From Spirochaetales bacterium (lineage in GTDB: Bacteria > Spirochaetota > Spirochaetia > DSM-27196 > Salinispiraceae), in contig JAACWS010000021.1 in the NCBI GenBank assembly GCA_009991955.1, positions 1 to 64,000 on the forward strand: a DNA stretch of 64,000 nucleotides, read 5' to 3'. This document shows, piece by piece, positions 4,538 to 29,046 of the stretch (the stretch's first letter is position 1; each line of letters starts with the position of its first letter). The notes under the pieces are model-generated. The model was not told the origin of the DNA, did no database searches, and saw nothing but the letters and a program-made list of their open reading frames with translations. The translations under genes were made by a program, and so were the position numbers.

Positions 4538-4557
4538 GTCATTGTGGTGCAATGACC
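4538..4557. repeat. GGTCATTG palindrome, copy A (galT leader)
   Basis: GTCATTG and CAATGAC (7-bp arms) are separated by TGGTG. This copy lacks the first outer G found in the other copies, and its right arm continues as CAATGACC. It lies in the galT leader, 54 bp before the start codon, where it could act as an operator or as an RNA stem. Confidence 0.6.
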
Positions 4558-4610
4558 AACGTAGCCAGAAAACAAGATTTTGGAGGTCCCCACATTTTGA
4601 GGAGGCTCCC

Positions 4611-5669
4611 TTGGAAAATCTCTTTACATCGCCCCATCGACGCTACAATCCCCTAACCGGTGAGTGGGTCAAGGTGAGTCCCCATCGGACCAAAAGGCCC
4701 TGGCAGGGTCGCACCGAGCAAACGGCCCTGGACTCCCGACCCGCCTACGACCCCGAGTGTTACCTGTGTCCCGGTAATACTCGCAGCAATGGGGAGGTAA
4801 ACCCCCAGTACGCCCACACTTTTAGTTTCCTGAACGATTTTTCGGCCATCTTGCCCGACAACGACCACCAGGCCGTCGAGGATGGGCTTTTCCAGGCCCA
4901 ACCCGAGCGGGGAATTTGTAAGGTGTTGTGTTTTAGCCCCCGGCACGATTTGACTATACCCCGAATGAATCAGTCTGAGGTTGAGGAGGTCGTGCAAACT
5001 TGGAAGCGGGAATACCACGAAATCGCTCAAAATCCATGGATCCAGCATATTCAAATTTTTGAAAACCACGGGAGCCTCATGGGGTGTTCAAACCCCCACC
5101 CCCATGGGCAAATTTGGGCCGAGAATATTCTTCCCGATATACCCGCGAAGGAAGACAAAAAGCAGAGAGCCTACTACCAGGCCCAGGGAAACAATCTGCT
5201 CATCGACTACGTCCAAGCAGAGGTGGTCAAGGGCGATCGCATAGTCGTGGAAAATAACGATTTTGTGGCCCTGGTGCCCTACTGGGCGGTGTGGCCCTAC
5301 GAAACCCTGGTTCTGCCCCGGGCCCAGGTAAAGAGTCTGGCCGAATTTGACCAGCACCTCATTTCGTCCTTGGCCGATCTCATGATTCGTTTAGGAATTC
5401 GCTACGACAATCTTTTTCAGACCGACTTTCCCTACTCCATGGGGCTCCATCAGGCGCCGGTGAATCGGAAACTGGATAATCCCCATGAAGCCGAGGACCA
5501 TTGGACCTTCCATATGCATTACTATCCACCCTTGTTGCGCAGTGCGGCGATTAAAAAATTTATGGTTGGATACGAGATGATGGCCATGCCCCAGCGAGAT
5601 ATTACCCCCGAAACGGCGGCAGAAATACTGCGAGCCGTTTCCGACATCCATTACCGAGCCGAGGGATAA
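4611..5669 (+). CDS. galT: Galactose-1-phosphate uridylyltransferase
   Basis: Class I GalT of the HIT superfamily, exchanging UMP between UDP-glucose and galactose-1-phosphate (Leloir pathway, cytoplasm). With the TTG start the protein has 352 residues, close to the E. coli enzyme. Cys50 and Cys53 (ECYLC) fit the structural metal site. The active-site run NPHPHGQ lies at residues 161-167, with His165 the likely nucleophile. I chose TTG at 4611 because GAGGAGG sits 5 nt before it and the preceding in-frame codons run into the operator palindrome. It is the first gene of galT-galK-galE, with 4 nt to galK. Confidence 0.92.
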   Translation: MENLFTSPHRRYNPLTGEWVKVSPHRTKRPWQGRTEQTALDSRPAYDPECYLCPGNTRSNGEVNPQYAHTFSFLNDFSAILPDNDHQAVEDGLFQAQPERGICKVLCFSPRHDLTIPRMNQSEVEEVVQTWKREYHEIAQNPWIQHIQIFENHGSLMGCSNPHPHGQIWAENILPDIPAKEDKKQRAYYQAQGNNLLIDYVQAEVVKGDRIVVENNDFVALVPYWAVWPYETLVLPRAQVKSLAEFDQHLISSLADLMIRLGIRYDNLFQTDFPYSMGLHQAPVNRKLDNPHEAEDHWTFHMHYYPPLLRSAAIKKFMVGYEMMAMPQRDITPETAAEILRAVSDIHYRAEG

Positions 5670-5673
5670 CACG

Positions 5674-6972
5674 ATGGCACTTGGAAAAGATTGGATCGAG
5701 TCGATTTCCTCAGGGAAACTTTCGAAGGTATTTTCGGATCTGTATCCGAACTCGTCTGACCAGGCATCCCGATATTCCGAACTTCTTCGAATCTACGCCG
5801 ATCGGTTTGGATTCTCGGGTGAGGTTAGGCTTTTTTCTACCCCCGGTCGGACCGAGTTGGCGGGGAATCATACCGACCATAATCACGGCAGGGTCATAGC
5901 GGGTTCGGTTCATTTGGATGCTGTTGCTGCCGTGGGCCCTGCTACCGAAGAGGGGTTGGTTCGGGTGTTTTCGACCGACTTGGACCAAGAATTTATAGTC
6001 TCGCTTCACACCTTGGAGGTTAACCCGGAAGAAATGGGTTCTACCGAGGCCCTTATCCGGGGGGTGGCGGCTTGGTTTGTTCAGAAAGATAAGAGGATTG
6101 GTGGCTTTTCCATGGTCCTTCAGAGTAACGTTCTGCGGGGCTCGGGGCTTTCCAGTTCGGCCTGTGTAGAGGTCCTTTTTGCCACGGTGTTCGACCGAGT
6201 TTACAATGGGGGAACGGTGTCCCCGGTTCAGCGGGCTATTTGCGGTCAGTTTGCCGAGAACGTGTATTTTGGAAAACCTAGTGGGCTCATGGATCAGACC
6301 GCTTGTAGTGTGGGTGGGGTTGTAGGCATCGATTTTAAAAATCCCCAGGATCCCCAGGTAAGCAAAGTCGAGGTTGATTTTGGAGCCTCGGGGTACCGCT
6401 TAGCGATTATCAATACCAAGAGCGACCATACCGGTGGGGCCGATGATTACGGTGCTATGCCCCGGGAAATGAAGCTAGTGGCCCAGGCCCTAGGCGCCCA
6501 GGTGTTGGCAGAAGTTGAACCCAGTCGGTTTTGGGGTGATTTTTTGCCTTTGAAAACCCAATTGCCTGGGAGGGCTATGGCCCGGGCAGGTCACTTTTTT
6601 TTGGAGAATGCCCGGGTACCCCGGATGCTTGCATGTCTTACCGCCAGGCCCCCGGATTTTGCCTCGTGGCTGAGAATGGTGGCCGAGTCGGGCAACAGTT
6701 CGTACAAGTACTTGCAGAACGCTATCGATGAGGTAGAAAATCAGGACTACGCCCTGGCGATTATGCTGGCGGAGGCCTATGAAGGGTGCTCTGGCCAGCA
6801 GGTAGTGGCCCGGGTTCATGGTGGGGGTCTGGGTGGTACCATCCAGGTCTACGTGCCCCAGGGCGACTGGACAGAATTTGTGCGACACATGGAAACGGGC
6901 CTGGGTGAGGGGTGTGTAATCCCCTTAAGAATTCGAAATTATGGCAGCATCGAAATAGAGGAGATTCTATGA
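5674..6972 (+). CDS. galK: Galactokinase
   Basis: GHMP-family kinase, 432 residues, phosphorylating galactose at C1 with ATP. The galactokinase signature GRTELAGNHTDHNHG is at residues 58-72 and the phosphate-binding GSGLSSSACVEV near residue 160. The C-terminal GHMP motif (VHGGGLGGTIQVYV) is also present. It is about 40 residues longer than E. coli GalK, partly through an N-terminal segment of about 25 residues. It starts 4 nt after galT, and its TGA overlaps the galE ATG (ATGA), so the three genes form one coupled operon converting galactose to glucose-1-phosphate and UDP-galactose. Confidence 0.93.
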   Translation: MALGKDWIESISSGKLSKVFSDLYPNSSDQASRYSELLRIYADRFGFSGEVRLFSTPGRTELAGNHTDHNHGRVIAGSVHLDAVAAVGPATEEGLVRVFSTDLDQEFIVSLHTLEVNPEEMGSTEALIRGVAAWFVQKDKRIGGFSMVLQSNVLRGSGLSSSACVEVLFATVFDRVYNGGTVSPVQRAICGQFAENVYFGKPSGLMDQTACSVGGVVGIDFKNPQDPQVSKVEVDFGASGYRLAIINTKSDHTGGADDYGAMPREMKLVAQALGAQVLAEVEPSRFWGDFLPLKTQLPGRAMARAGHFFLENARVPRMLACLTARPPDFASWLRMVAESGNSSYKYLQNAIDEVENQDYALAIMLAEAYEGCSGQQVVARVHGGGLGGTIQVYVPQGDWTEFVRHMETGLGEGCVIPLRIRNYGSIEIEEIL

Positions 6973-8000
6973 AAGTTCTGGTAACCGGCGGGGCAGGGTA
7001 TATTGGCAGTACAGTGGTTCGGGCATTGCTCGACCAGGGGCATTCGGCGGTGGTTTTGGACAGCCTGGTAACTGGCCAGCGAAAGTTTGCCGAAGGGGTG
7101 GCTGGGGTAAAGTTCTACCACGGTGACATCGCCGATCGGGGAATTGTAAAGAAGATCTTCCTGGATAATCCGGAAATTTCCACCGTCATTCACTGTGCGG
7201 CCCTCATTATTGTTCCCGAAAGTGCGGACCACCCGGCTAAGTATTACCGGGAGAACGTCGCAAAATCTGTCGAGTTGTTCGACGTACTATCCGAACTCGG
7301 AGGAAAGAATCTCGTTTTTTCCTCCAGCGCGAGTATTTATGGAAATGTAGAAGGATTCAAGGTCACCGAGACCTCGCCTCTGAATCCCAGCAGCCCCTAC
7401 GCCCGGACCAAGTTTATGATGGAAATGGTCTTGCAGGATTTTTGTGCGGCCTACGATTTGCGCGGTCTGGCACTGCGGTATTTTAACCCTATTGGTGCCG
7501 ACCCTCAGTTGCGCACCGGCGGGTATGTGAAGAACCCCAGCCACGTGTTGGCCAAGTTGGTGAACGCGGCCTTGGGCATTGAAGGTGAGTTTAAGGTGAC
7601 CGGGGTCGATTGGCCGACCCGGGATGGGTCGGGAATCCGGGACTATATTCACATTTGGGACCTGGCCCGGGCCCACGTCAAGGCTGCTGAAGCCATTGAG
7701 GCCGGTGGTCTGTTTGACCGTCGGGATGGAGATGTCACCAGCCTGCGGTACCAGGTAATTAACGTGGGCACCGGAAACGGGGTTACGGTGCGCGAACTGG
7801 TCGATGGGTTCAAACAGGTATGGAGTGGTGAGGTGCCGGTGTCCGAGGCTCCTGCCCGGCCCGGCGACGTCGCCGGAGCCTTTGCGGATATTTCCAAGGC
7901 CCAACGCTTATTGGGTTGGAGTCCCGAGCTTACCACTGCCGAGGCGATTAAGGCAGAGTTGGATTGGCGCGAAGCCAGGAAGGGGATTTTGGGGTATTAG
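6969..8000 (+). CDS. galE: UDP-glucose 4-epimerase
   Basis: Extended SDR enzyme of 343 residues that interconverts UDP-galactose and UDP-glucose using tightly bound NAD. The N-terminal GGAGYIGS Rossmann motif, the SSSASIYG active-site Ser/Thr region and SPYARTK (catalytic Tyr-X3-Lys) are all present, followed by LRYFNPIGAD. The ATG at 6969 is preceded by GAGGAG and overlaps the galK stop. The 3' end overlaps the convergent radical SAM gene by four bases, with TAG on the plus strand and TAA on the minus strand interlocked. Confidence 0.93.
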   Translation: MKVLVTGGAGYIGSTVVRALLDQGHSAVVLDSLVTGQRKFAEGVAGVKFYHGDIADRGIVKKIFLDNPEISTVIHCAALIIVPESADHPAKYYRENVAKSVELFDVLSELGGKNLVFSSSASIYGNVEGFKVTETSPLNPSSPYARTKFMMEMVLQDFCAAYDLRGLALRYFNPIGADPQLRTGGYVKNPSHVLAKLVNAALGIEGEFKVTGVDWPTRDGSGIRDYIHIWDLARAHVKAAEAIEAGGLFDRRDGDVTSLRYQVINVGTGNGVTVRELVDGFKQVWSGEVPVSEAPARPGDVAGAFADISKAQRLLGWSPELTTAEAIKAELDWREARKGILGY

Positions 8001-9205
8001 GGGCCGAAAAAGGCCCTATAGTCTGCCGCCGGTCGACGGGCTGTTAGGGCCTTGGTCATGGCCCGGAAATAGGGCTTTGTTTCGCGATAGAAATCGAAGT
8101 AGCCCTGACACAGGTAGTTGAGTTTGCCCGACTTGGTCTGGATAAGGCGGTCTTTGGGGCAGGCGCCGTAACAGAGGTGCAGGTAAGGACAGGTTTTGCA
8201 CTTGTCTGGTAAGGCGGTGTATTTCGAGGTTCCAAATTCCTTTTGGGCCGGCTGATCGATAATCTCGGTTACCGAATGATGGTTCAGGTTTCCGAGGAAG
8301 TATTCGGGGCTCACGAAGTGGTCACAGGAGTACACGTCCCCGTTGTGTTCGATAGCCATGGCCCGGCCACATTCTTTGGAGTGGACACACAGGGATGCGG
8401 GGTAGCCGGCGTAGATTCCCAGAATCATATCGAAGTGTTGTACGAATATTCGACCGATGTCTTTTTTTCTCCATTCATGAAAAACACCGTTAAGGAACGA
8501 GCCCCACTGGGCGGGACGAACCGAACGAGGGTTCACCAGGGAGAGTGGGTCGTCGCCGATTCTTGCTTCCCGGGCCTTGGTCGAAGGTTCCACAATCGGA
8601 ATAAATTGGAGATAGGTCGACCCAATCGATGTGAGGAAGTTGTACACTTCTACCGGGTGGTCGGCGTTGTTTTCTTGCACCACCGTCAGGGTGTTAAAAT
8701 CCACCCCGTGTTTCTTGAGGTTTTCTAAGCCTGCCATGACGTCTTTGAAGGTTCCTTGCCCCACCCGGTCTACCCGGTATCGGTTATGGAGTTCCTCTGG
8801 TCCATCGATGCTCACTCCAACTAAAAATCCGTGGTCTTTGAAAAAGGATGCAAACTCGTCGCCGACTAATATTCCGTTAGTTTGGAAGGCGTTGAGGATT
8901 TTTACCCCCGCTGGAGCGTATTTTTGCTGATATTCCACGGCTTTTTCGTAGAATCGCACGCCCAAGAGGGTTGGTTCGCCCCCCTGCCAGGCGAAGGGTA
9001 TTTCTTTTAGCCCCTCGGGCTGGCTCTGAATATACCTGCGGACGTAGTTTTCCAGGGTCTCATCGGTCATGGTAAAGGCGGACCGATTTTTGGCGTCGGG
9101 GTAGAGTTTTTCTTTTTCTAGGTAGAAACAGTATTCACAGCGAATATTACAGAGGGCGCCGATAGGTTTTGCCATAAAATGGAAGGGAGTCTGAGTTCTG
9201 GTCAT
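7997..9205 (-). CDS. Radical SAM enzyme, anaerobic sulfatase-maturating type with SPASM domain
   Basis: A 402-residue radical SAM protein closely resembling anSME, which oxidises an active-site Cys or Ser of sulfatases to formylglycine. Cys19-X3-Cys23-X2-Cys26 (CNIRCEYC) would hold the SAM-cleaving 4Fe-4S cluster, and AWQGGEPTLLG is the GGE motif. The C-terminal SPASM region is rich in Cys (CVHSKECGRAM, SCDHF, CKTCPYLHLCYGACPKDRL). It is the last gene of gntR-chrA1-chrA2-anSME, and its ATG overlaps the chrA2 stop. No sulfatase is encoded nearby, so its target may be elsewhere in the genome or may not be a sulfatase. Confidence 0.85.
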   Translation of the reverse strand: MTRTQTPFHFMAKPIGALCNIRCEYCFYLEKEKLYPDAKNRSAFTMTDETLENYVRRYIQSQPEGLKEIPFAWQGGEPTLLGVRFYEKAVEYQQKYAPAGVKILNAFQTNGILVGDEFASFFKDHGFLVGVSIDGPEELHNRYRVDRVGQGTFKDVMAGLENLKKHGVDFNTLTVVQENNADHPVEVYNFLTSIGSTYLQFIPIVEPSTKAREARIGDDPLSLVNPRSVRPAQWGSFLNGVFHEWRKKDIGRIFVQHFDMILGIYAGYPASLCVHSKECGRAMAIEHNGDVYSCDHFVSPEYFLGNLNHHSVTEIIDQPAQKEFGTSKYTALPDKCKTCPYLHLCYGACPKDRLIQTKSGKLNYLCQGYFDFYRETKPYFRAMTKALTARRPAADYRAFFGP

Positions 9206-9720
9206 AGAAAAAGGATACCCCCAAAGGCGGCGGCCACCAAGAGCCAGGCGGGATGGAGTTTGGTGCGAGCCAGAATTGCCAAGCCCACGAGTGAGATGAT
9301 TACTGGTCCCCATCCGGTTAGGGCCACCTTTCCGATGGAGAAAGCACTGTACAAAATGAGGGCAACGATTCCCGGGCGTAGGCCATTCATAAGGTCCTGG
9401 ACGAGGGGTGTTTTTAAGAACCGAAAGGCTATCGTAGCAAGGATCAACATAAGAATGACCGGAACGGTAACAACTCCCAAGGTAGCAAGGGCGGCTCCAC
9501 CGACTCCACCAACCTTAAAACCAATGAAAGTTGCGGTATTAACGGCTATTGGCCCGGGGGTCATTTCAACGATAGCCAAAAGTTCGGCGAAGGTTTCGTG
9601 GGTAAGCCAATTTCTTTTTGTGATGATTTCTAATTCTATGAGAGGCAAGGACGCGTATCCTCCCCCAAAGCTGAAGGCACCAATTTGTAGAAAGGTCAAA
9701 AATAAGGTCAATAGATTCAT
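9202..9720 (-). CDS. Chromate transporter, short-chain ChrA subunit 2
   Basis: A 172-residue membrane protein of the CHR family, with the short-chain architecture in which two half-size proteins act as a pair. Typical motifs are FSFGGGYASLPL near the N-terminus and EMTPGPIAVNTATFIG around residue 52. Some CHR proteins export chromate; for the short pairs the natural substrate is often unknown. The ATG at 9720 has GAGGAGAAT upstream and overlaps the stop of the first half. Its own stop overlaps the radical SAM start. Confidence 0.85.
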   Translation of the reverse strand: MNLLTLFLTFLQIGAFSFGGGYASLPLIELEIITKRNWLTHETFAELLAIVEMTPGPIAVNTATFIGFKVGGVGGAALATLGVVTVPVILMLILATIAFRFLKTPLVQDLMNGLRPGIVALILYSAFSIGKVALTGWGPVIISLVGLAILARTKLHPAWLLVAAAFGGILFL

Positions 9721-10271
9721 TCTTTTGATTCTCCTCGGCGTGCACGACGAGACAATGGCCCATAGAGGAGTCCCGAGGCCCCTGAGAGTAGGACTATTAG
9801 GTAGGGGTTGACCTGAACAAAAATCATCAAGGATAACCAGGCTAGGGTCCCCAGAACCAAGAACCAGTTTATGTGGTGGAGGGAGACTTTCCAGGCAGCA
9901 AAGACAATGAGGGATACTACAAGTCCGAGAATACCCCGGAAGGCTGAAACTACCTGGGGAAGATCGGTATAGGGCATGAACCACAGGGCAATCGAGAGAA
10001 TCACTAAAAAAGAGGGGAGTATTACGCCCAATCCTGTAGCGAGTGCGCCCCTAGTACCCAAAGCTTTGTACCCAACCATGACGGCGGTGTTTACCGCTAT
10101 GGGGCCTGGAGCTGACTGGGCAATGAGAAGTACGTCTGACACTTCGTCATGGGTCAGAAGATTCGATGCGGTAGATATCTCGTGCTGAATAAGGGGAATC
10201 ATTGCGTATCCTCCCCCTAGGGTGAATAGGCCTATACGGAAAAAACGTGTGAAGAGGGCAAGGTAGATCAA
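9717..10271 (-). CDS. Chromate transporter, short-chain ChrA subunit 1
   Basis: A 184-residue CHR-family membrane protein, partner of the following half. Motifs FTLGGGYAMIPL and QSAPGPIAVNTAVMVG align with the same positions in subunit 2, showing the internal homology of the pair. The C-terminus is basic (RRARRGESKE), probably cytoplasmic. It sits between gntR and chrA2 with four-base ATGA overlaps on both sides, so expression should follow the GntR regulator. Transport of chromate or sulfate is inferred from the family only. Confidence 0.85.
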   Translation of the reverse strand: MIYLALFTRFFRIGLFTLGGGYAMIPLIQHEISTASNLLTHDEVSDVLLIAQSAPGPIAVNTAVMVGYKALGTRGALATGLGVILPSFLVILSIALWFMPYTDLPQVVSAFRGILGLVVSLIVFAAWKVSLHHINWFLVLGTLAWLSLMIFVQVNPYLIVLLSGASGLLYGPLSRRARRGESKE

Positions 10272-10975
10272 AATGGTTTCCTTTCAATAACGAGGTCCGA
10301 GCGAAAGCGCACCCGGTCTGGGCGAACGAGAGTCGTTCGAATTTCGATTATTCGGTTTTGGGTGTCAAAGGTAGTCCTGTAGGTTTGTAAAGCCGGCTGA
10401 CCGGGTAAAATTTCGAGGTATTTCGATTCAACGGGCTTTGGAAGGACGGGTTCAAGGTATTCCTGGGATTTTCCGTATTCGATTCCGTACACTTCTTCCA
10501 GGATTCCGTAAAGGGACTGGGTTTCCAGGTCGTAATTTTCAAGGTCTGGAGCAATTGCGATGGGTATCCATGATTGCTCAAGGGCCAGGGGTCGTTTATC
10601 CAAAAGACGGAGGCGTAAAACCGAGTAACCTTCCTCTTGGGGGTCCTTTTTCAGGCTAAGGAGGGTAGTCGAGAGCCGGAGGTTAGGGTCCTGGTAACGG
10701 TGCCCAAAGCTGTAAAAATTGTGGAGGTTTTGTTCGAGAGGCGGGGTCTTTATGCGGGTGCCTTGGCCTCGCCGACTTTCCAAGTATCCCTTTCGCTTAA
10801 GTACCTCGGTAGCCTGCCGGACCGTAAGGCGGGTGACACCAAATTCCTCGGCCAAATCGTTTTCTGGAGGCAAGAGGCTATCGAGAGAGTAAATGTGTTC
10901 GGTGATTCGTCTTTCGAGTATTTGGCGAATTTGTTCGTAGAGAGGAATGGGGCTGTGGTGGTCTATGAGGCTCAC
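10268..10975 (-). CDS. GntR-family transcriptional regulator (HutC/UTRA type)
   Basis: A 235-residue regulator. The N-terminal winged helix (residues about 10-75, PLYEQIRQILERRI through FGVTRLTVRQATEVLKRKGYLESRRGQGT) is typical of GntR. Residues about 90-230 fit the UTRA ligand-binding domain of the HutC subfamily. It leads an operon with two chromate-transporter halves and a radical SAM enzyme, joined by four-base overlaps. A perfect 16-bp palindrome 9 bp before its start is its likely own operator. The ligand is unknown. It lies 32 bp behind the AraC-type gene and could also be read from that promoter. Confidence 0.88.
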   Translation of the reverse strand: MSLIDHHSPIPLYEQIRQILERRITEHIYSLDSLLPPENDLAEEFGVTRLTVRQATEVLKRKGYLESRRGQGTRIKTPPLEQNLHNFYSFGHRYQDPNLRLSTTLLSLKKDPQEEGYSVLRLRLLDKRPLALEQSWIPIAIAPDLENYDLETQSLYGILEEVYGIEYGKSQEYLEPVLPKPVESKYLEILPGQPALQTYRTTFDTQNRIIEIRTTLVRPDRVRFRSDLVIERKPF

Positions 10976-10983
10976 GGATAAAA

Positions 10984-10999
10984 GTATAGATATCTATAC
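10984..10999. promoter_or_regulatory. GntR autoregulatory operator (palindrome)
   Basis: GTATAGATATCTATAC is a perfect 16-bp palindrome in the 32-bp gap before gntR. Position, perfect symmetry and AT-rich character fit a HutC/YtrA-type GntR operator. Binding is inferred. Confidence 0.6.
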
Positions 11000-11007
11000 A
11001 AATTTAT

Positions 11008-11874
11008 TCAAGATCTATGAGGGACAATTCTGTAGGCTTTGGGCGATGTACCCACTATCTGGCGAAATTGGTGAACGAAGCTCGAGGAGTCGAGGTAACC
11101 CAGGGTCTTGGCTATCTCGGTGACCGACTGGGGTGAGTAAATAAGAAGGTTCTGGGCTCGGCGAATTCGGGCATGAATCTGGTAGGTTTTCATTGATAGT
11201 CCGGTGCGATCGCGAAACTGCTTACGGAGGAGGGAGTAGCGGATGCCCAGGTTCTGGGCAATTGCCTCGGGAGGAACGAGGTGGTCGGATTCTATGGCTT
11301 GCTGGGCGGCAACAACCTTGTCCGGGGGGGCTTTGATATGGGGATTTCGTTGCTCAGGTACCTCGAGGGTGATTTTGGGGTTCCGTTCCTGATGAATAAG
11401 TTCGAGGCTAAGGGCCTGAAGCCCGAGGAAAACCTGGTCGTGGGTCGATTCATCGCTTCGATCGAGGGTATCGATCATCGAAACCCAGCGGGAGATGAGG
11501 GCTTCGTTCAGGCCCGGATTCCAGACCCGCAGATTTTCGGGTATGCGTCCCAGGGCAACGAGTCCACGATAGATAGGTGCACCGAAGGCCACAAAGAGTT
11601 CGATCCATTGGCCGTCGGGAAAAACCAGGGACGAGTGGCGCTCGCCGGGAACTCGTAAGAAGGCCGAGCCGGGCTTCAGAGGAATAATGGAGCCGGTAGA
11701 ATCGACGAAGGTGCCTCGCCCTTCGATGAGCCATATAATTCCGAAGTGGGGAAAGCGGGCGTCCTGATGACTATCCCGAGTGCTTGTTTTTTGGATGATT
11801 CCACAACCGACCAGGCCAGCGGTTGGATCCTGACCGAGGGTACGAAAAACCAGGCGTGTGGATAAATCGTGCAT
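11008..11874 (-). CDS. AraC-family transcriptional regulator, likely lactose/galactoside regulator
   Basis: A one-component AraC regulator of 288 residues. The N-terminal part looks like the cupin sensing domain (FGIIWLIEGRGTFVD, LKPGSAFLRVPGERHSS). The C-terminal 90 residues carry two helix-turn-helix units, ending in SVTEIAKTLGYLDSSSFVHQFRQIVGTSPKAYR. It is divergent from lacZ, and a pair of 15-bp direct repeats spaced 21 bp, the usual geometry for AraC dimers, lies between them. I chose the ATG at 11874; an in-frame TTG at 11901 would reach into the operator. There is no clear ribosome binding site. It probably activates lacZ in response to a galactoside (inference). Confidence 0.85.
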   Translation of the reverse strand: MHDLSTRLVFRTLGQDPTAGLVGCGIIQKTSTRDSHQDARFPHFGIIWLIEGRGTFVDSTGSIIPLKPGSAFLRVPGERHSSLVFPDGQWIELFVAFGAPIYRGLVALGRIPENLRVWNPGLNEALISRWVSMIDTLDRSDESTHDQVFLGLQALSLELIHQERNPKITLEVPEQRNPHIKAPPDKVVAAQQAIESDHLVPPEAIAQNLGIRYSLLRKQFRDRTGLSMKTYQIHARIRRAQNLLIYSPQSVTEIAKTLGYLDSSSFVHQFRQIVGTSPKAYRIVPHRS

Positions 11875-11887
11875 GAGTATAGTGTAG

Positions 11888-15247
<3,360 letters not shown>

Positions 15248-15256
15248 CGTAAGGAC

Positions 15257-18007: not shown

Positions 18008-18110
18008 ACTTGTTCGAGTCCTCCAACTCGAAAGGTCGTCAATTTGTCGCCTCCGGTCAAGAATGAACTGTTGTGGAGAAAGAGCATCTTGTTTTTGACC
18101 CTTACGTAGG

Positions 18111-18200
18111 TTCATTGGCCATCTTTTTAGTCGTTGTAAGGTCATTGGGGTCAATGACCGGAAGACTATTAGACTTAAGAAATAGTTGGCCAATGAACTA
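18111..18200. repeat. Nested inverted repeats with GGTCATTG palindrome, copy B
   Basis: A 20-bp perfect palindrome, GGTCATTG-GGGT-CAATGACC (18140-18159), lies between two outer arms, GTTCATTGGCCA (18112-18123) and TGGCCAATGAAC (18187-18198), which are exact 12-bp inverted copies of each other. The central spacer is 4 bp here but 5 bp in the other copies. The whole array fills the divergent spacer between the SDR and antiporter genes. Confidence 0.65.
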
Positions 18201-18201
18201 G

Positions 18202-18237
18202 GACAAAATTTGCAACAGTTGTGACAAAATTTACAAC
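18202..18237 (+). promoter_or_regulatory. 21-bp-spaced direct-repeat operator, SDR/antiporter
   Basis: GACAAAATTTGCAAC (from 18202) and GACAAAATTTACAAC (from 18223) are direct repeats 21 bp apart, the same motif and spacing as upstream of lacZ. They lie about 50 bp before a TACCCT box of the antiporter gene and about 195 bp from the SDR start. Confidence 0.72.
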
Positions 18238-18304: not shown

Positions 18305-19492
18305 ATGAGCTTCGAAGTCGTATTTTTCCTTCTATTTTTTGGTGGATGGGCCGCTGGCCGTCTGGCCCAACTGGTCACTCTGCCACCAATCTTAGGTATG
18401 ACCCTGTGGGGTATCGGTCTGGGTGTGCTCGTCGAGTACTTGGGCTACCCCTGGCCCGGGGGTTTCTGGGACCTGGTCCCTTTTCTCAAGTCCTTGGCCC
18501 TGGTGGTGATTCTGCTTCGGGCAGGGTTGGGCTTAAGTCGAAAAGAGCTGAAACGGGCGGGGATGGCGGGGGTCCTCATGGCCTTTGTCCCTGCGGTTTT
18601 CGAGGGGGCTGCCCTCATGGTGAGCCTGCGGTGGATTCTCGAGTTCTCGTGGCCCGCCGCGGGGCTTACGGCTTTTATGCTGGCCGCGGTCAGTCCGGCG
18701 GTCGTAGTACCGTCGATGCTCGAATTGCAAGAGAAGGGAATCGGCAAAAAAAACGGAGTTATAACGATTATTTTGGCTGGTGCCTCGGCCGATGACGTCT
18801 TTGCTATTACCATTTTTACGGTGTTTTTGGGCCTGGCCCAGGGGTTCGACGTATCCATGGCCGGGGCCTTGGCTACCATACCCTTAACATTGGCAGGGGG
18901 AATCGGGTTGGGAGGACTGGTTGGGTGGATAATCGCCCGGAGTTTCCGACGCCACCATCATCGAATCCGAGCGACAGAAAAGACCCTTCTGGTCCTGGCC
19001 TCGTCGGTGTTTTTGGTCCAGGTGGGAACCTGGACGGGCCTGGCTGCCCTCTTGGGTGTTATGACCCTGGGGCTCATGGTGGTCGAGTTTGCGAACCCCG
19101 CGGCCTTAGAAATGGCCTCCAAGCTAGGTAAGGTGTGGGTCTTTGCTCAGATCTTCTTGTTTGTAGCGATTGGCCTGGCCTTGGAACCGGCCCAGGCTTT
19201 GGTGCTGGGGCCTAAGGCCCTTGGAATCTTGGCCCTGGGCCTGGTAGCCCGGTCGGTGGGTGTTCTGTTGGCCACCTGGCCCTCAAGTCTAACCTGGGGT
19301 GAACGGTGGTTCAGTGTTTTGGCCTATCTTCCCAAGGCGACGGTCCAAGCTGCTCTGGGAGGTATTGCCTTATCTGTAGGGATTCCCGAAGGCAAGGCGA
19401 TTCTCTCCCTGGCGGTAGTCGCCATTCTCATGACCGCTCCCTTGGGACTCTTTGGAATTCGGTGGGGAAAGCGGTGGTTAGAGGGTAGTTGA
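18305..19492 (+). CDS. Cation:proton antiporter (CPA1/NhaP-like)
   Basis: A 395-residue polytopic membrane protein with about 12 segments, of the monovalent cation:proton antiporter type (Na+/H+ exchanger fold). Family-like parts are AAVSPAVVVPSML (discontinuous helix 4 region), LAGASADDVFAIT (the conserved Asp pair of helix 5) and the C-terminal LAYLPKATVQAALGGIAL. No long cytoplasmic regulatory tail follows. The ATG at 18305 lies 8 nt after a TACCCT box and lacks a ribosome site. It ends directly against the convergent glmS stop with no gap. Ion specificity is not visible. Confidence 0.85.
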   Translation: MSFEVVFFLLFFGGWAAGRLAQLVTLPPILGMTLWGIGLGVLVEYLGYPWPGGFWDLVPFLKSLALVVILLRAGLGLSRKELKRAGMAGVLMAFVPAVFEGAALMVSLRWILEFSWPAAGLTAFMLAAVSPAVVVPSMLELQEKGIGKKNGVITIILAGASADDVFAITIFTVFLGLAQGFDVSMAGALATIPLTLAGGIGLGGLVGWIIARSFRRHHHRIRATEKTLLVLASSVFLVQVGTWTGLAALLGVMTLGLMVVEFANPAALEMASKLGKVWVFAQIFLFVAIGLALEPAQALVLGPKALGILALGLVARSVGVLLATWPSSLTWGERWFSVLAYLPKATVQAALGGIALSVGIPEGKAILSLAVVAILMTAPLGLFGIRWGKRWLEGS

Positions 19493-21382: not shown

Positions 21383-21406
21383 AGGCTCTCCTTTGGGTTT
21401 TATAGA

Positions 21407-21667
21407 CTAGCCGTAGATAGCCCGGCGAATTTGCCGCTGGGTAAGTTTAGGGCCACGAAAGAGGTGGTGTTGGACGTCCTTGGCCAGGTGACGATAGATT
21501 TCTTCGTTCTTGAATCCTTGATCCTGGAGTTCCAGATGCCGGCTGCGGATATACTCCTGGGGATCATCTTGGAAGAAAACCAACAGGTCCTGCCAAAGTT
21601 GTTCCGACAAGTTGGAATCCAGGGCATAGGCCCGGCGTAGATGATCTTTTAGCCGTTCGGGAATCAT
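21407..21667 (-). CDS. Small hypothetical protein upstream of glmS
   Basis: An 86-residue charged protein that I do not recognise. It looks helical, with no membrane segment or metal motif (MIPERLKDHLRRAYALDSNLSEQLWQDLL...). The ATG at 21667 has an AGGTG site 8 nt upstream and a TATAG-containing AT-rich box before that. Codon use matches its neighbours, and it sits 24 bp ahead of glmS, so a shared transcript is likely. Confidence 0.6.
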   Translation of the reverse strand: MIPERLKDHLRRAYALDSNLSEQLWQDLLVFFQDDPQEYIRSRHLELQDQGFKNEEIYRHLAKDVQHHLFRGPKLTQRQIRRAIYG

Positions 21668-21716
21668 AGAAAGCACCTCGCGAACTATAGTATCGGCGAG
21701 GTGGGATAAAATCTTA

Positions 21717-22370
21717 TTATTTGCCCGAAAGCAGGTAGATAATGGTATTTTTTAGTTCTAAGGCCGTAGAAGATAGGTAGGTGGGTACGGGTTTTAGGGC
21801 ATCCAAAGAACGAAAACCCCAGCGAACCCCTGCAAAGGGAAGGTTTGCGGCTATCGCGGTCTCCACATCAACTTCCGTATCGCCTACAAAGACCCTCGGG
21901 AGGGGAGGTAGGTCCTTGGTTATTTCGTTCACCATCCAGGGGTCAGGTTTTTGGGGGAATCCCTTTGTCGCTCCCACAAGGCGATGAAAGACCGGGGGCA
22001 AAAAATGAGATACCAAAGCCTGGGATATTTCTTGGTCTTTGTTTGTGGCGATGGCCAGAGTAAGGCCGGATGCCGCCAGTTCTTGAACAAGCTCGACAAT
22101 TCCCGGGTAGGGTTTGGTGTGAAGGGTCGGGTTGGCCCGATAGGATGTCACCAAGTCTTTTACTACCAGATCGATAACTTGATTTCCCCTTCCAGGGTCG
22201 ATACTATCTTCTACAAGTCGTCGAAGGCCCCGGCCGACCCTTTGACGGCAGGTATCTGGGTCTATACCTTCGATACCGTGGGCAACTAAAGCTGCGTTCA
22301 GGTGATGACGAATTCCTTCGAGGGTATTTAGGAGGGTTCCATCGAGATCGAATATTACTAGTCCATTCAT
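21717..22370 (-). CDS. gph: HAD hydrolase, phosphoglycolate phosphatase-like
   Basis: A 217-residue HAD phosphatase of subfamily IA. Motif I is IFDLDGTLLNT at the N-terminus, motif II AIATNKD (about residue 107), a Lys in GFPQKPDPWM, and motif IV VFVGDTEVDVETA. This order fits phosphoglycolate phosphatase (Gph/PgpB-like), though the family is broad. I chose ATG 22370 because AGAGGTG precedes it; a GTG nine bases upstream is possible. The gene is divergent from pepP, with a GGTCATTG palindrome between them. Confidence 0.8.
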   Translation of the reverse strand: MNGLVIFDLDGTLLNTLEGIRHHLNAALVAHGIEGIDPDTCRQRVGRGLRRLVEDSIDPGRGNQVIDLVVKDLVTSYRANPTLHTKPYPGIVELVQELAASGLTLAIATNKDQEISQALVSHFLPPVFHRLVGATKGFPQKPDPWMVNEITKDLPPLPRVFVGDTEVDVETAIAANLPFAGVRWGFRSLDALKPVPTYLSSTALELKNTIIYLLSGK

Positions 22371-22407
22371 GGGTGGCACCTCTGGAATCTATTTTTTTAC
22401 GTAAATC

Positions 22408-22428
22408 GGTCATTGCGCCGCAATGACC
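22408..22428. repeat. GGTCATTG palindrome, copy C
   Basis: GGTCATTG-CGCCG-CAATGACC, a perfect 8-bp inverted repeat with a 5-bp spacer, lies in the divergent gap between gph (start 22370) and pepP (start 22513). It falls upstream of both genes, as expected for an operator. Confidence 0.65.
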
Positions 22429-22512
22429 TACGGACATCATACTCGTGGAAATAGTAGTTTCCGTAAGGTGCCCGGGACGCAGTATACCAAAAGGATGAGA
22501 AAAGGACAGACA

Positions 22513-24501
22513 ATGAGCAGAGCAGATTCTGAAGTAGTACGGGTTCGGGTAAAAAAAGTGGCGGAATTATTGCAAACCCATAGAGCTTGGGCGTGGATTT
22601 TCCCTTCCGGTGATCCCCACGCTTCTGAGTACCCTGCTCCACCTTGGCAAAGTCGGGCATGGATTTCTGGGTTTCATGGCTCTGCCGGTACCGCAGTGGT
22701 CCTGGCTGATGGTCGGGGAGCCCTCTGGACCGATAGTCGATACTTTTTAGAGGCCTCGGAAATTCTTGCCGACAGCCCCTTTGTCCTCATGAAAGAAGGC
22801 CAAAGTGGTACCCCGGGAATTCAGGAGTGGATTTTCCAGACCGCCAAGACCGCGGGCTACGGGAAGAGTGGTCCCTTGGCCGATGGACCAATTCCTGCCA
22901 CTTCGCCAGTAATCCTCGCCGAAGCTACGGGGATAACTCCAGGCTTTTTGGCCCAGCACGGGCTTTCTTCGGTCACACTGGCTGAAGGAGAATTAAACTC
23001 TATTTGGACCGACCGACCCGCCCTCATCGCCCAGCCAATTCGGGAGTTCTCTGAGAAAGTTGCGGGAAAGAGTCGGGAAAAAAAGATTGAAGAGCTGGTT
23101 TCTGTTTTGGCCTCCGAGGGTGCCGACGGCATGTTAGTTTCCGCCCTCGATGAAATCGCGTGGGTACTGAACCTTCGGGGCGAAGACGTCGAGTATAACC
23201 CGGTGTTTTATGCCTATTTATTTATTGGAAGAAGCCCGGTTGGTTCCTCCTCGGCAGGATCTTCGACCTCGCAGGCTCCTGCCGCCGCCAAACCAAAATC
23301 GCTTGCCTACGGCTTTGAAGCACCCCAAACCGAAGACCCTGGGGCTGAACTTTGGGCGACGGTTGGCGATTATTCCAGTCTGCTTTTTACCCAGGATGAG
23401 CGATTGACTCCCGAAGTACGTCGGGCCTTGGGTCGGGCGGAGGTAGGAATTCTTCCTTACGAGGATTGTCAGCCCTGGCTGGCGGGACCGGGGTCGAAGA
23501 AAAAGATCTGGTATAACCCCAGCCAAATTTCTGCAGGTTTTGCCCAAACCCTTACCGAAAACGCCAAGGGTTCGATTGCAAAAGAGTTACCTATTACCCT
23601 AGCAAAGGCGAAAAAGACTCCTGCGGAGGTTTCGTCTCTTCGATCGTGTATGGTGGAAGATGGCGAGTCCTTGGTGCGGGCCTTCGCGTGGATAGAATCA
23701 TCGATTGCTAAGGGCTCTGTTCTCTCCGAGGCCGAGATTGCCGAGAAGATTGGGTCATTCCGGTCCCAAATTGCCGGGTATAGGGGCGAGAGTTTCCACG
23801 CGATTGTAGGTTTTGCCCGCAATGGGGCAATTATCCATTACCGACCCGAAGAGCCCGGTTGTGCTCGGGTCGGCAAGCCCGGGGACCGGGGACTTTTACT
23901 CATCGACTGCGGTGGCCAGTTCGACTCGGGGACAACCGACGTTACGCGGACCCTGGTCATTGGCGTCCCTACTGCCGAAGAGAAGGAGCGTTATACCCTG
24001 GTCCTCAAGGGGCACGTTGCCCTGTCCCGGGCCCGGTTTCCCGTGGGCACAGTGGGGACCCAACTAGATACCTTCGCTCGTCAGGCCCTGTGGGAGCGAG
24101 GACTAAACTACGGTCACGGTACAGGCCACGGGGTCGGTTTTGCAATGAACGTGCACGAGGGTCCGGCGCGCATTAGCCCGGTCCCTAACCCAGCCCCCTT
24201 GGCGGCCGGAATGGTCATGTCCAATGAGCCGGGTTTCTATAAGAACGGCTCCTACGGTATTCGCATAGAAAATCTTGTGGCTGTCCGCCCGGTGTCGACT
24301 CCCGGATTTGATGGATTTTTGGAATTTGAAACCCTTACCATCGCCCCTTACGAGCCTGAACTCATTGACCGCTCACTACTGACCCCAGCAGAAATTGAGT
24401 GGGTAAACGAATACCACCGATGGGTGTACGATGCCTTAGCACCGGGACTCAACGGGGAGGCCCTGGGGTACCTGGAGAAGAAAACCGTGCCATTGGAGTA
24501 G
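22513..24501 (+). CDS. pepP: Xaa-Pro aminopeptidase (M24 family)
   Basis: A 662-residue metallopeptidase removing N-terminal residues before proline. It has the long three-domain form: two creatinase-like N-terminal domains (about residues 15-180 and 190-350) and a C-terminal pita-bread catalytic domain (about 370-590). The metal ligands are visible in DCGGQFDSGTTDVTRT, HGTGHGVGFAMNVHE and SNEPGFY, with a further Glu in IRIENL. Near residue 245 there is a low-complexity Ser/Ala insert (GSSSAGSSTSQAPAAAKP) unlike typical family members. ATG 22513 has AAAGGA upstream. No signal peptide is seen, so it is cytoplasmic. Confidence 0.9.
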   Translation: MSRADSEVVRVRVKKVAELLQTHRAWAWIFPSGDPHASEYPAPPWQSRAWISGFHGSAGTAVVLADGRGALWTDSRYFLEASEILADSPFVLMKEGQSGTPGIQEWIFQTAKTAGYGKSGPLADGPIPATSPVILAEATGITPGFLAQHGLSSVTLAEGELNSIWTDRPALIAQPIREFSEKVAGKSREKKIEELVSVLASEGADGMLVSALDEIAWVLNLRGEDVEYNPVFYAYLFIGRSPVGSSSAGSSTSQAPAAAKPKSLAYGFEAPQTEDPGAELWATVGDYSSLLFTQDERLTPEVRRALGRAEVGILPYEDCQPWLAGPGSKKKIWYNPSQISAGFAQTLTENAKGSIAKELPITLAKAKKTPAEVSSLRSCMVEDGESLVRAFAWIESSIAKGSVLSEAEIAEKIGSFRSQIAGYRGESFHAIVGFARNGAIIHYRPEEPGCARVGKPGDRGLLLIDCGGQFDSGTTDVTRTLVIGVPTAEEKERYTLVLKGHVALSRARFPVGTVGTQLDTFARQALWERGLNYGHGTGHGVGFAMNVHEGPARISPVPNPAPLAAGMVMSNEPGFYKNGSYGIRIENLVAVRPVSTPGFDGFLEFETLTIAPYEPELIDRSLLTPAEIEWVNEYHRWVYDALAPGLNGEALGYLEKKTVPLE

Positions 24502-24603
24502 ATCGAGCCCGGATGTTCCCTTGGCATACGGTCCCAGAGGCTAAAAGTTCCCAACGTGACCTTCGAGCTCTATGGGTATCAAAAGGGTCGCCGCGACTTG
24601 GTT

Positions 24604-26076
24604 CTATAGTCGGTGTATTTCTGTTGATTCAAATATCCTCTCGTCGGAACATACTCTAAGGAATTTTCCCGACCCGATTCGCACATTCCGCAGCCCCACC
24701 GTTTTTGGTAGCTCATAGGGATAGGCCTGCTCCGGTGAAGGGTTCGCCCCTTCGTAGGGTCGGGAGAAGAGAAAGATTGGCCAATCGTCGGGACAAAACC
24801 GGTCGTCGATATCAAGATCTTCTATTTCGACCCTTTCAGGCATCGAACAAGGGTACCCAAAGTCGTGGTTCCCCGAATTGCTCCCGAAAATAAGGTGGGA
24901 CTCCCTTTCCATTTCGGGGGTTGCAGGCCCATCTTCCGGATCCACTATCCAGGTACACCCCCGGATAATGACCCGCCCTTCCCAGGTACTTCCATAATCC
25001 TCCCGAAACCGCAAGAAACTCCGGCTCTTGAGCCTGACGTTCTCGAGTAAAATTGAACCCTTCCCAATGGCATTTATCCCCTGGTGGCCCAGTTGAGTAT
25101 TGCGAATGATATAGGTCCCAGACACCCCCATGTGGGCGTCTATCCGCGACAGATGGCAGTTCTCGACGCGAATGTTTTTACAGAAGTTTGAGGCAAATAC
25201 CCCCCACCGGGTTTTGTCGTCGATGTGGTTCATTCGGCAATTTTCGAGGGTGAGGTTGATTACCTGATTGGCGTGCAGGTCGTAGGAGCCCATTTTTACC
25301 GGGAGGTTTGCTCGGCCGATGGTGGTGTAAATCTTGTGGCCAGTACTAAAACAGTTCTGAAAACGGATATTGGCGCACTTCTCTGCCGATAGGAATCCTC
25401 GGTAGGGCGATCCCGTCGACCCCTCTGCGATCACGCAGTGGCTTAGGCCATCAATGGTGGTGTTCGAACGACCAATATCGATTCCTCGGCTGTTGTAGTT
25501 ATAGACCGACTTGGCCTGGTTGGCGATAGTCGTAAAAATACCGCCCTGAATCGTTAGAGTCTCGGACTCCAGAGGCCAGGTCACGGCTTCGGTTACATGG
25601 TCATAGTTCCAGTCGATCGGGGATAAAATACTGCCGTCGGGGTCGACCAAAAAACAGTCGGTGGTGTCTTCGCCGGGGCTTGGATTGAGGCCATACCGAA
25701 TGAATTTTTTTTCTTTAGAATTTGACACCAAAATATAACTAGTGGTTTTTGGGTAGAACTCGAGTTTGGTCTGATTTTTCTCCAGGGATTCCAATGAAAA
25801 TTCTTGGGGTTCTGAAATCCGGGGAACGAGAAAGCAGGGGGTGGCAAAATCCTCGACCCCTCTATCGTCGATGACAAAACGGGTAGTGCTCCAGTCGGTG
25901 TCGGTTTTTATAACCGCCGTCAGGGCCCCACCACCGATGTAATATTCAGCGGTAGGTTTGGTTCTTATAGGTAGCCCCCGGGTATTTGCATACTCGTGGG
26001 CGGCGATAATTGCCTCTTGGTCATCGGCGATGCCGTCACCGATTGCACCAAAGTCTTCGTAGGATACAAAGGTCAT
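24604..26076 (-). CDS. Parallel beta-helix protein, pectate-lyase/glycosyl-hydrolase-28-like, cytoplasmic
   Basis: A 490-residue protein starting with the Pectate_lyase_3-like segment FVSYEDFGAIGDGIADDQEAIIAAHEYAN, common in polygalacturonase/rhamnogalacturonase relatives, followed by repeating beta-helix strands (VINLTLENCRMNHI, KNIRVENCHLSRI, SILLENVRLKS, RVIIRGCTWIV). It has no signal peptide, so it should act in the cytoplasm on imported oligosaccharides. I cannot identify the catalytic residues or confirm a lyase or hydrolase. Its ATG overlaps the GH88 stop by four bases, making it the last gene of the uronate-oligosaccharide operon. Confidence 0.72.
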   Translation of the reverse strand: MTFVSYEDFGAIGDGIADDQEAIIAAHEYANTRGLPIRTKPTAEYYIGGGALTAVIKTDTDWSTTRFVIDDRGVEDFATPCFLVPRISEPQEFSLESLEKNQTKLEFYPKTTSYILVSNSKEKKFIRYGLNPSPGEDTTDCFLVDPDGSILSPIDWNYDHVTEAVTWPLESETLTIQGGIFTTIANQAKSVYNYNSRGIDIGRSNTTIDGLSHCVIAEGSTGSPYRGFLSAEKCANIRFQNCFSTGHKIYTTIGRANLPVKMGSYDLHANQVINLTLENCRMNHIDDKTRWGVFASNFCKNIRVENCHLSRIDAHMGVSGTYIIRNTQLGHQGINAIGKGSILLENVRLKSRSFLRFREDYGSTWEGRVIIRGCTWIVDPEDGPATPEMERESHLIFGSNSGNHDFGYPCSMPERVEIEDLDIDDRFCPDDWPIFLFSRPYEGANPSPEQAYPYELPKTVGLRNVRIGSGKFLRVCSDERIFESTEIHRL

Positions 26077-27185
26077 TTTTGAGTCAGGTCCCTCAATCGA
26101 GTTAATGCCTCGAGGAAGTAATAATCACCATAAATGATACTAATGTGCTGTCGCCCTTTGTGGGTACTCGAGCCGTAGGCTTCGGATCCTTTGTCCAAGA
26201 GGTAATCGACGTCGGGACTCGGATTGTAGGCCTTGGTTCTGAGGGCTTCCAAAAGCTGCCTAGCCCCATTCAGGTACAGGGCTTTTTCGTACGGGAGTAC
26301 AAAAGACGCAATCGCCAACATTCCACTGGCCGCAATGGCCCCAGCAGTAGTGTCGTAGAAGACCGGGGTCGCCGGAGCCCGGAAATCGAGTAAGGGCAGG
26401 TAGTCGGTCTGGGCAGCGTTAGCCAAGAAGTAGTGGGCCACCCGCTTCGCCGCATCCAGGTGCCGCTGTTCACCGGTAGAACGATACAGCTCGGCAAATC
26501 CGTGTACGGCCCAACTTTGCCCTCGAGACCAGGATGAGCCTTTCTCGTATCCCTGTCCCCCAATGGAGTCAATTTTTGCACCGGTCTGGGGGTCGTAGAC
26601 TACAATGTGTTCTACCGAACCATCGGGTCGAATAAAATTCTCCAAGGTCTTGTCCCCGTGGGCCCGGGCAATTTTTGCGTACCGGCTGTACCCGGTCTCT
26701 TCGGTGGCAAACCACAAAAGGGGCAGGTTCATCATGGTATCGATGATGGACCAGCTTTCCTTCTCCTTGCTGTTCCAGGCAATAATAAAGTTGCAATCCA
26801 GGTCATATCGGGAGGCCAGGAATTTTGCCGCTGTAAGAACCCGCTCTCGGCTAGCTGGGTCTTTTGTCATTTGGTAATGTTTTCCTGCGCTGAGGTACCA
26901 CATAAATCCAACATCGTGGTGTATGCCTTCCGAATCCGAAAGAACAGGATCGAGCTTCTCTATTGCTAACTTTGCCTTGTCCAGGAATATTGGATCTTTA
27001 GTCAGGGTATAGAGATCGAGAAGGTAAGCGGGCCAAAATCCATTGGTCCACCAGCTGGCTTGTTCTTCGAATTTATCGACAAACCTTCCGTTTTCGGTGG
27101 TATAGGCGATAATGTTTCCCGTCCGGGCCAGAACGGTTTTCATCTTGTCCCCAATTTGGGGGAGTAACTGAGTTAGTTGTTCCAT
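26073..27185 (-). CDS. Unsaturated glucuronyl hydrolase (GH88)
   Basis: A 370-residue (alpha/alpha)6-barrel enzyme of family GH88, which removes the unsaturated uronic acid left by polysaccharide lyases. Two family positions are visible: Asp in HHDVGFMWYLS and Asp in SIIDTMMNLPLLWFA, the pair that hydrates the double bond in known members. The substrate-binding run GQGYEKGSSWSRGQSWAVHG is also present. There is no signal peptide. It sits between the ABC permeases (10 bp) and the beta-helix gene (four-base overlap), so imported unsaturated uronyl oligosaccharides are the likely substrate. GH105 is an alternative but fits less well. Confidence 0.87.
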   Translation of the reverse strand: MEQLTQLLPQIGDKMKTVLARTGNIIAYTTENGRFVDKFEEQASWWTNGFWPAYLLDLYTLTKDPIFLDKAKLAIEKLDPVLSDSEGIHHDVGFMWYLSAGKHYQMTKDPASRERVLTAAKFLASRYDLDCNFIIAWNSKEKESWSIIDTMMNLPLLWFATEETGYSRYAKIARAHGDKTLENFIRPDGSVEHIVVYDPQTGAKIDSIGGQGYEKGSSWSRGQSWAVHGFAELYRSTGEQRHLDAAKRVAHYFLANAAQTDYLPLLDFRAPATPVFYDTTAGAIAASGMLAIASFVLPYEKALYLNGARQLLEALRTKAYNPSPDVDYLLDKGSEAYGSSTHKGRQHISIIYGDYYFLEALTRLRDLTQK

Positions 27186-27195
27186 AATTTCTTCC

Positions 27196-28074
27196 TTATC
27201 CTTTTATTGCACCAATCATGACACCCTTGGCAAAGTACTTCTGCAAAAAGGGATAGACGGTGAGTATTGGGAGAGTCGAGACGATAATGGTAGCGTAGCG
27301 TATACCCTCGGACAGGAACGCTGCGTCATCATTCGCCGATCCTTGGGTCATGGTTGATAAGTCGTTCAATATAAGTATTTCCCGTAAAATAAGCTGCAAG
27401 GGAAAAACCTCGCGGCTTCGAATGAATACCGATGCCCAAAACCACCCATTCCAAATTCCTACCCCGTAATACAGGACCATAACCGCGATGACTGCTTTAC
27501 TGAGGGGCATGACTATCCGGGAGTAAATCGTAAAGTGGCTTGCTCCATCCATTCTTGCGGACTCTTCGAGGGATACGGGAATAGCTAGGAAGGAAGTACG
27601 CATAATGATGAGGTTATAGGCACTCACCGCGAAGGGGAAAACCACCGACATGAGGTTGTTAATGAGTCCCAGATCCCTTACAACCAGATACAAGGGAATC
27701 ATTCCACCGGCAAAAAACATAGTAAAGCTAACAAAAAACATAAACGGATTTCTAAGGCCGAAGGTCTTCCTTGAAAGCACGTACGCCCCCAGGGATGTGA
27801 GAATTACCTGCAGTGGGACACCTACTATCAGGATAAAGAGGGTATTTTGGTAGCCAATAAGAATGTTCGGATTCGTAGAAACCGAACGATAGGCGTCCAG
27901 GTTTGCCTGCCCTATCGGGAAAAAGAGGAGTCCCCGATTTGTCATAAGTGCTTGGCCGTCGCTTATGGAACCAATAAGGACGTGCCACATTGGGTACAGG
28001 GTAACAAAGGTAAGAAGGGCGAGAAATACATAATTAAAAAACTGAAAAACCTTATATTCGATTGATTCTTTCAT
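27196..28074 (-). CDS. ABC sugar transporter permease (CUT1, LplC/YtcP type)
   Basis: A 292-residue inner-membrane permease with six predicted segments. The EAA loop reads ESARMDGASHFTIYSRIVMPLSKAV at about residue 180, as in binding-protein-dependent sugar permeases. It ends MIGAIKG, the usual C-terminus of the LplC/YtcP group that imports oligosaccharides (often uronate-containing) in Firmicutes and spirochaetes. Thirteen bases separate it from the other permease. No ATPase gene is present in this locus; such systems commonly use a shared MsmX-type ATPase encoded elsewhere. Confidence 0.9.
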   Translation of the reverse strand: MKESIEYKVFQFFNYVFLALLTFVTLYPMWHVLIGSISDGQALMTNRGLLFFPIGQANLDAYRSVSTNPNILIGYQNTLFILIVGVPLQVILTSLGAYVLSRKTFGLRNPFMFFVSFTMFFAGGMIPLYLVVRDLGLINNLMSVVFPFAVSAYNLIIMRTSFLAIPVSLEESARMDGASHFTIYSRIVMPLSKAVIAVMVLYYGVGIWNGWFWASVFIRSREVFPLQLILREILILNDLSTMTQGSANDDAAFLSEGIRYATIIVSTLPILTVYPFLQKYFAKGVMIGAIKG

Positions 28075-28087
28075 TTGACTTTACCCT

Positions 28088-29002
28088 TTACCACAGACTC
28101 GTTTCACTGAACCGTTTACTCAACTTGTTGGCCAATAAAAGCATGAGGAAGTTGATTAACGAATTAAAGAGACCGACCGCCGTGCTGTAACTGAAGTTCA
28201 TTTCCAAAAGTCCTGTCCGATAGACCAGGGTCGAGATGACATCGGCAACGCTGTAGGTCGAAGGACTGTACATAAGAATGATCTTCTCAAACCCAACAGT
28301 GAACAGACGACCCATTCGTAGAATAAGTAGGATCATGATCGTACTCTGAATACTTGGAAGGGTTATATGGATGGTCTGTTTCCATCGGTTGGCCCCGTCG
28401 ATTTTTGCTGCTTCATAGAGCTCGGGATCCACTCCCGAAAGGGCAGCTAAATAGATAATCGAATTCCAACCTATGGTCTGCCAAACCTCGCTGACGACAA
28501 AGAGAGTTCGAAAGTACTCGGGAAATTGAAGCAGAGGTCTTCGTTGAACCCCGAAGAAGCTGAGCATATCGTTAACTACCCCATCGGTAAGGGTAAATTC
28601 CCGAAGCAAACCAATAATGACTACCAGGGAAATAAAGTGAGGTAGATAGGTGATAGTTTGAACCGAGTTCTTAAACCACCGAAGTTTTACCTCGTTGAGT
28701 AGGAGCGCCAGTATTATCGGAGCCGGAAATCCAAAGAGTAACGAGAGAGCGCTAATGGCAAAGGTGTTGATAACAACCCGGGAAAAAAAGACGCTATTAA
28801 AAAATCGTACAAAGTGGACAAACCCGACCCAGGGGCTCCCGGTAAAGCCTTTGGCTGGAGTGTAGTTTTTAAAGGCAATGGTAGCTCCATACATGGGGAT
28901 GTAATGGAACACGATAAAATATACGACAACGGGAAGGAGCATGAGAAGAAGCTCTTTGTCTCGGTGGAAGCCCGTCCGTAATTTGTAGGGAAGTTTTTTC
29001 AT
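28088..29002 (-). CDS. ABC sugar transporter permease (CUT1, LplB/YteP type)
   Basis: A 304-residue permease, partner of the following one. The EAA motif YEAAKIDGANRWKQTIHITLPSI lies around residue 195, and the N-terminal LLMLLPVVVYFIVFHYIPMYGATIAFKNY segment is typical of LplB/YteP proteins. I chose ATG 29002 (GAGGTATTTCG upstream). The frame continues further upstream but would run through the GGTCATTG palindrome and the terminator that separates it from the solute-binding protein gene. Together with 27196 and 29097 it forms the importer of this locus. Confidence 0.9.
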   Translation of the reverse strand: MKKLPYKLRTGFHRDKELLLMLLPVVVYFIVFHYIPMYGATIAFKNYTPAKGFTGSPWVGFVHFVRFFNSVFFSRVVINTFAISALSLLFGFPAPIILALLLNEVKLRWFKNSVQTITYLPHFISLVVIIGLLREFTLTDGVVNDMLSFFGVQRRPLLQFPEYFRTLFVVSEVWQTIGWNSIIYLAALSGVDPELYEAAKIDGANRWKQTIHITLPSIQSTIMILLILRMGRLFTVGFEKIILMYSPSTYSVADVISTLVYRTGLLEMNFSYSTAVGLFNSLINFLMLLLANKLSKRFSETSLW

Positions 29003-29025
29003 TCGAAATACCTCGTAATGAGTTG

Positions 29026-29046
29026 GGTCATTGCGGTGCAATGACC
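29026..29046. repeat. GGTCATTG palindrome, copy D
   Basis: GGTCATTG-CGGTG-CAATGACC, a perfect 8-bp inverted repeat with a 5-bp spacer, lies between the terminator behind the solute-binding protein gene and the first permease gene, 24 bp before the permease start. Confidence 0.65.

Follow-up and report, generated by a model that had tools for sequence, protein, structure and literature searches.

QMITE2 from Coxiella burnetii is a MITE with an inner palindrome and the target of an IS1111-type element (PMC5896051), and it is present in 78 copies (PMC10969869). REPs are a known insertion target of IS110-family elements (PMC1525189). Size variation arising from partial copies has been reported for Chunjie and QMITE (PMC10969869). 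The family analysed here is similar to QMITE2, a largely intergenic MITE of 150-190 bp with an inner palindrome and an IS1111-type invader. However, QMITE2 makes duplications of 7-11 bp and its sequence is unrelated to the family here. IS1111 enters a GTAG palindrome in QMITE2, whereas here it is the terminal repeat that receives an IS110-family element. Other bacterial MITEs, among them ERIC, BOX and Chunjie (PMC10969869), resemble our family in size range, intergenic location and stable hairpins, and differ from it in sequence, ends and duplication length. IS5-family insertion sequences and their MITEs are also similar to our family, whose ends are common to a 1,210-bp IS5-family element of genome G036 and to an IS5-family remnant in the own genome (G000). 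Unlike IS5-family insertion sequences, the family here has no coding sequence, contains a conserved central hairpin and shows a 5-bp duplication in its subfamily A.

The window, that is, the whole stretch of 64,000 nucleotides analysed, contains three exact sites of GGTCATTG-N3..7-CAATGACC, where none is expected (100 shuffles). A sequence-only reading had described four perfect copies of this palindrome. Three of them are exact (Table 1), while the copy in the galT leader, AGTCATTGTGGTGCAATGACC at 4537-4557, has a left arm of 7 bp with one mismatch to the proposed motif. All four lie outside called genes, as that reading stated. It also stressed that the spacers differ, which is true but misleading, as the N5 form has arms of, in most cases, 8 bp (GTCATTGC-NNN-GCAATGAC), and conservation of the flanks reaches well past the palindrome. 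By their sequence, the elements at 4497-4591 and 22374-22473 are to be classed as clear members of the MITE family described below. The latter has its terminal AGAGGTGCCA 3 nt upstream of the ATG (22370, - strand) of a HAD phosphatase gene. Around the palindrome at 29026-29046 the flanks are weakly conserved and the ends are not recognisable; it is probably a decayed MITE copy. The element at 18110-18198, with an inner core common only to C89:4363-4392, stands apart as a small hairpin element of its own and may be related to subfamily B. Adjoining the decayed palindrome, at 29056-29087 (- strand), a strong hairpin is followed by T residues (GTAGGGATGATTCTTCATCCCTACCTTTTTT), which by its sequence looks like the intrinsic terminator of the upstream 29097-30671 gene.

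Table 1. Coordinates of the palindrome-bearing elements of the window, and of the IS110-family junctions elsewhere in the genome.
Feature	Position	Strand	Details
Left target-site duplicate ACATA, galT-leader copy	4492..4496		catACATA before AGGGACCTCT; 4/5 bases same as right
MITE copy, subfamily A, 95 bp, galT leader	4497..4591	+	covariance model E 4.8e-15; apex 4537-4557
Right target-site duplicate ACATT, galT-leader copy	4592..4596		directly after end GGAGGTCCCC
Separate two-copy hairpin element	18110..18198	+	outer arms GTTCATTGGCCA/TGGCCAATGAAC; apex 18140-18159, N4 spacer
MITE copy, subfamily B, 100 bp	22374..22473	-	covariance model E 1.0e-16; apex 22408-22428
Apex palindrome, leader of sugar-permease-like gene (start 29002, - strand)	29026..29046	+	30.6 bits, E 0.01
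IS110-family junctions	L008:1562; L048:845 (-); L068:2724 (-); L072:2619 (-); L082:2570

The own genome (2.44 Mb, 90 contigs, ~93% complete) contains seven exact matches to the palindrome. With the N5 spacing and up to 3 mismatches, 77 places were found genome-wide, against 8 for the reversed control, and their flanks are conserved; this count and inspection of flanks, proposed by the sequence-only reading itself, point to a mobile repeat. The N4 spacing gave 13 places against a background of 10, and only 18140 and C89:4373 stand out. Alignment and folding of 15 copies showed that the palindrome forms the conserved apex of an imperfect, ~98-bp hairpin with three helices, bounded by terminal inverted repeats GGGNACCTCT...AGAGGTNCCC; in 60 copies both sides agree with the consensus in 7 or more of 10 bases. 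A covariance model finds ~83 distinct places in the own genome, its other hits being these places read on the opposite strand, and long and short forms were found as well. The family occupies ~85 places, nearly all intergenic. Copies are mostly 92-102 bp long (range 53-233 bp) and fall into a major subfamily A, GGGGACCTCTAAAAACC...TTAAGTCATTGC...GGCCAGAAAA...TTTTAGAGGTCCCC, and a minor subfamily B, GGGCACCTCTGGAAACTACTATTTCC...GTAAGTCATTGC...GATTCCAGAGGTGCCC. Short copies of 53-75 bp are devoid of the apex. Two long forms, L111 (C14:21104-21294, 190 bp) and L115 (C40:3475-3707, 233 bp), carry two or three extra near-perfect loop hairpins, three in the case of C40:3475-3707, and stretches of 270-300 nt around them fold into many-armed structures of -92 and -115 kcal/mol, respectively. 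The element had no match in viral contigs, and in named genomes (GTDB r220) the motif gave only single matches, in four Pseudomonas and one Acidobacteria MAG. As far as can be tested by comparison of sequences, the family appears to be new, its kind, the MITE, being already known.

Evidence of movement was obtained from the flanks. Among 60 copies, 24 have 5-bp flanks that match at 4 or more of the 5 bases, where 1.6 are expected and the maximum in 10,000 permutations was 8; nothing comparable was seen for lengths of 3, 6, 7 and 8. In subfamily A, flank identity at length 5 is 60% against 28% expected (0 of 2000 permutations), and no such excess appears at 3, 6 or 8. In subfamily B, identity at length 4 is 46% against 29% (p 0.0145, n=11), which is suggestive of a 4-bp target-site duplication. 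In two cases (C29:29881/29921 and C60:34742/34847) one copy lies within or directly against another. An exact empty site for the galT copy could not be aligned in relatives because they are too diverged (68-75% DNA identity). Given the ~98 bp of conserved flanks, the terminal inverted repeats and the target-site duplications, the dispersed element is a MITE, and of the two readings offered before, a protein operator or a dispersed small hairpin element, it is the second that holds. Tn3-derived TIMEs also make a 5-bp duplication, as subfamily A does. They resemble our family in their GGGG ends (PMC4133298), but the family here lacks their ~38-bp terminal repeat. Tn3 transposase (PF01526) is absent from the own genome, and for this reason a Tn3-derived element was rejected.

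Further information about the origin of the family came from its relatives. The covariance-model search of 40 relatives, which cannot detect forms that lack the apex, gave only weak hits, all in G036, a genome of the same order but another family. A search of 46 genomes with the end GGGCACCTCTGGAAACT, allowing one mismatch, found it in G036, in G001, which belongs to the same genus, and once in G002. Two places in G036 are ~100-bp elements with both ends. A third (G036:C56:15250-16459) is the 1,210-bp element, with a terminal inverted repeat of 17 or more bases on both ends; its transposase is split by a frameshift, the main part matching the NCBIfam IS5-family profile NF033581 (148.5 bits, cut-off 140) and the rest matching DDE_Tnp_1. 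In G001, GGGCACCTCTGGAAACT with one mismatch bounds a short element located before a groEL-like gene, having both ends, GGTCATTGATTTCCAATGG inside and a GTCATTG-like apex. Finally, contig C62 of the own genome begins with an N-terminal fragment of an IS5-family transposase whose upstream end is GGGCACCTCTCAAAACC.

We therefore consider, with a probability of about 0.88, that the dispersed copies form a MITE family whose origin is an IS5-family element. Judged from the sequences, the link is close for subfamily B and looser for subfamily A. Against an IS5 origin, subfamily A and the IS5 elements have only ~15 terminal bases in common, and the duplication is 5 bp in A while 4 bp is suggested for B. 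We propose that the ends GGGNACCTCTNNAAA... are those of an IS5-family insertion sequence, forming its terminal inverted repeats, and that an IS5-family transposase may have moved the elements in trans, duplicating 4-5 bp of the target whenever one inserted. An intact transposase with these ends was not found in the own genome by DDE_Tnp_1 search (~93% complete, 90 contigs). As neither this domain nor that of Tn3 was found, the driver transposase may have been lost or left unassembled, and one may be missing from the assembly. Transposition would here have mostly ceased, the copies presumably persisting as largely neutral hairpins of which some may have been adopted as ribosome-binding sites. 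If a RAYT (Y1) transposase had moved a REP-like palindrome, the copies would also be palindromic, intergenic and numerous, and REPs too receive IS110-family elements. However, the terminal inverted repeats and the 4-5-bp duplications, the latter not expected of such a repeat, point to a DDE transposase, and these ends are also found on an IS5-family element, making a RAYT origin highly improbable.

Gene context was taken from a simple gene caller, and neighbouring genes were named by reading their translations. Of the 85 places, 26 lie in divergent gaps, 22 and 14 in co-directional ones and 10 in convergent ones, while only 5 overlap a called gene and the rest adjoin contig ends; the family is short, non-coding and found in many intergenic copies, as MITEs are. 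Neighbours are varied and include genes for a HAD phosphatase, an MBL-fold-like protein, a PhoB-like regulator and a dTDP-sugar-reductase-like protein. The link to sugar genes seen before does not extend to the ~85 places, which adjoin genes of many kinds. An operator of a sugar-responsive transcription factor would explain the perfect palindrome and the fact that two of the four window copies are near sugar genes, but conservation is not confined to the palindrome and covers ~98 bp, terminal repeats and target duplications are present, the spacer is 4 or 5, and the neighbouring genes are unrelated in function; we give this explanation almost no credence. Another motif, similar to TCAAAATTTACAAC, was observed at 11898-11932, 18203-18237 and 56174-56187, with 5 window matches (up to 2 mismatches) against 0.5 expected, twice in pairs 21 bp apart in intergenic gaps; it also occurs around C89:4373 and near C88:27790. 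From its sequence it may be the site of a regulator, and as a candidate operator it is preferable to the palindrome.

On the element's + strand, a start codon follows the end of ten copies at a distance of 0-5 nt, compared with one in the opposite orientation (one-sided binomial 0.006). These ten are mostly of subfamily B, and their terminal AGAGGTG is mostly 6-8 nt before the start, at the Shine-Dalgarno position. From this arrangement, it appears that some copies have come to serve the downstream gene as its ribosome-binding site, and the excess fits a retention of insertions supplying such a site. It is tempting to go further and see subfamily B as a portable translation module, in which the end arm, kept as ribosome-binding site of several genes, could pair with the opposite hairpin arm; we regard this as unlikely. 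The outer stem covaries, with 123 cells changed on both sides against 42 in shuffles. Together with the position of AGAGGTG in ten copies of one orientation and one of the other, this is what a cis-regulatory structured RNA in 5' leaders would give, its outer stem hiding or showing the Shine-Dalgarno as in a riboswitch, a thermosensor or a protein-binding leader. However, most copies are not beside a start codon, they occur in both orientations and also between convergent genes, and they carry target-site duplications. Moreover, Rfam gave no match at gathering score in the window and nothing meaningful at 4480-4620, and the covariance model finds the own genome only, apart from the weak hits in G036. 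We consequently hold a structured RNA to be improbable and retain the MITE family. Matched changes in the outer arms can stem from a transposase that requires similar ends, from hairpin-templated correction, which has been reported for RNA hairpins (PMC8794818), or from selection on the folded form. Template switching as their main source is not supported, as the closest copies show 33 single changes against 4 compensated double ones.

Five MITE copies are joined to one repeated sequence, and the junction falls at exactly the same base of the terminal repeat in all five (AGAGAT / GGTATGATTTACGTGG; Table 1). At L048 the joined sequence encodes the C-terminus of an IS110-family transposase (NF033542, 104.5 bits, under the 140-bit cut-off). 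It looks, from these junction sequences, as if an IS110-family element inserts site-specifically into either arm at the end of the MITE. Many contigs break off no more than a few hundred bases from a copy (C60:67, C87:62, C33:16972, C1:9623, C79:155, C68:429), and therefore the repeats and the IS110-family element probably broke the assembly.

In summary, a guessed regulon is replaced by a family of mobile elements, and the motif should not be used to link galT with the sugar permeases. The set of copies allows the study of a transposon end adopted as ribosome-binding site and of repeated IS110-family insertion into the end of another transposon. If the portable translation module were true, a single transposon family would have put a shared translational switch in front of many genes.
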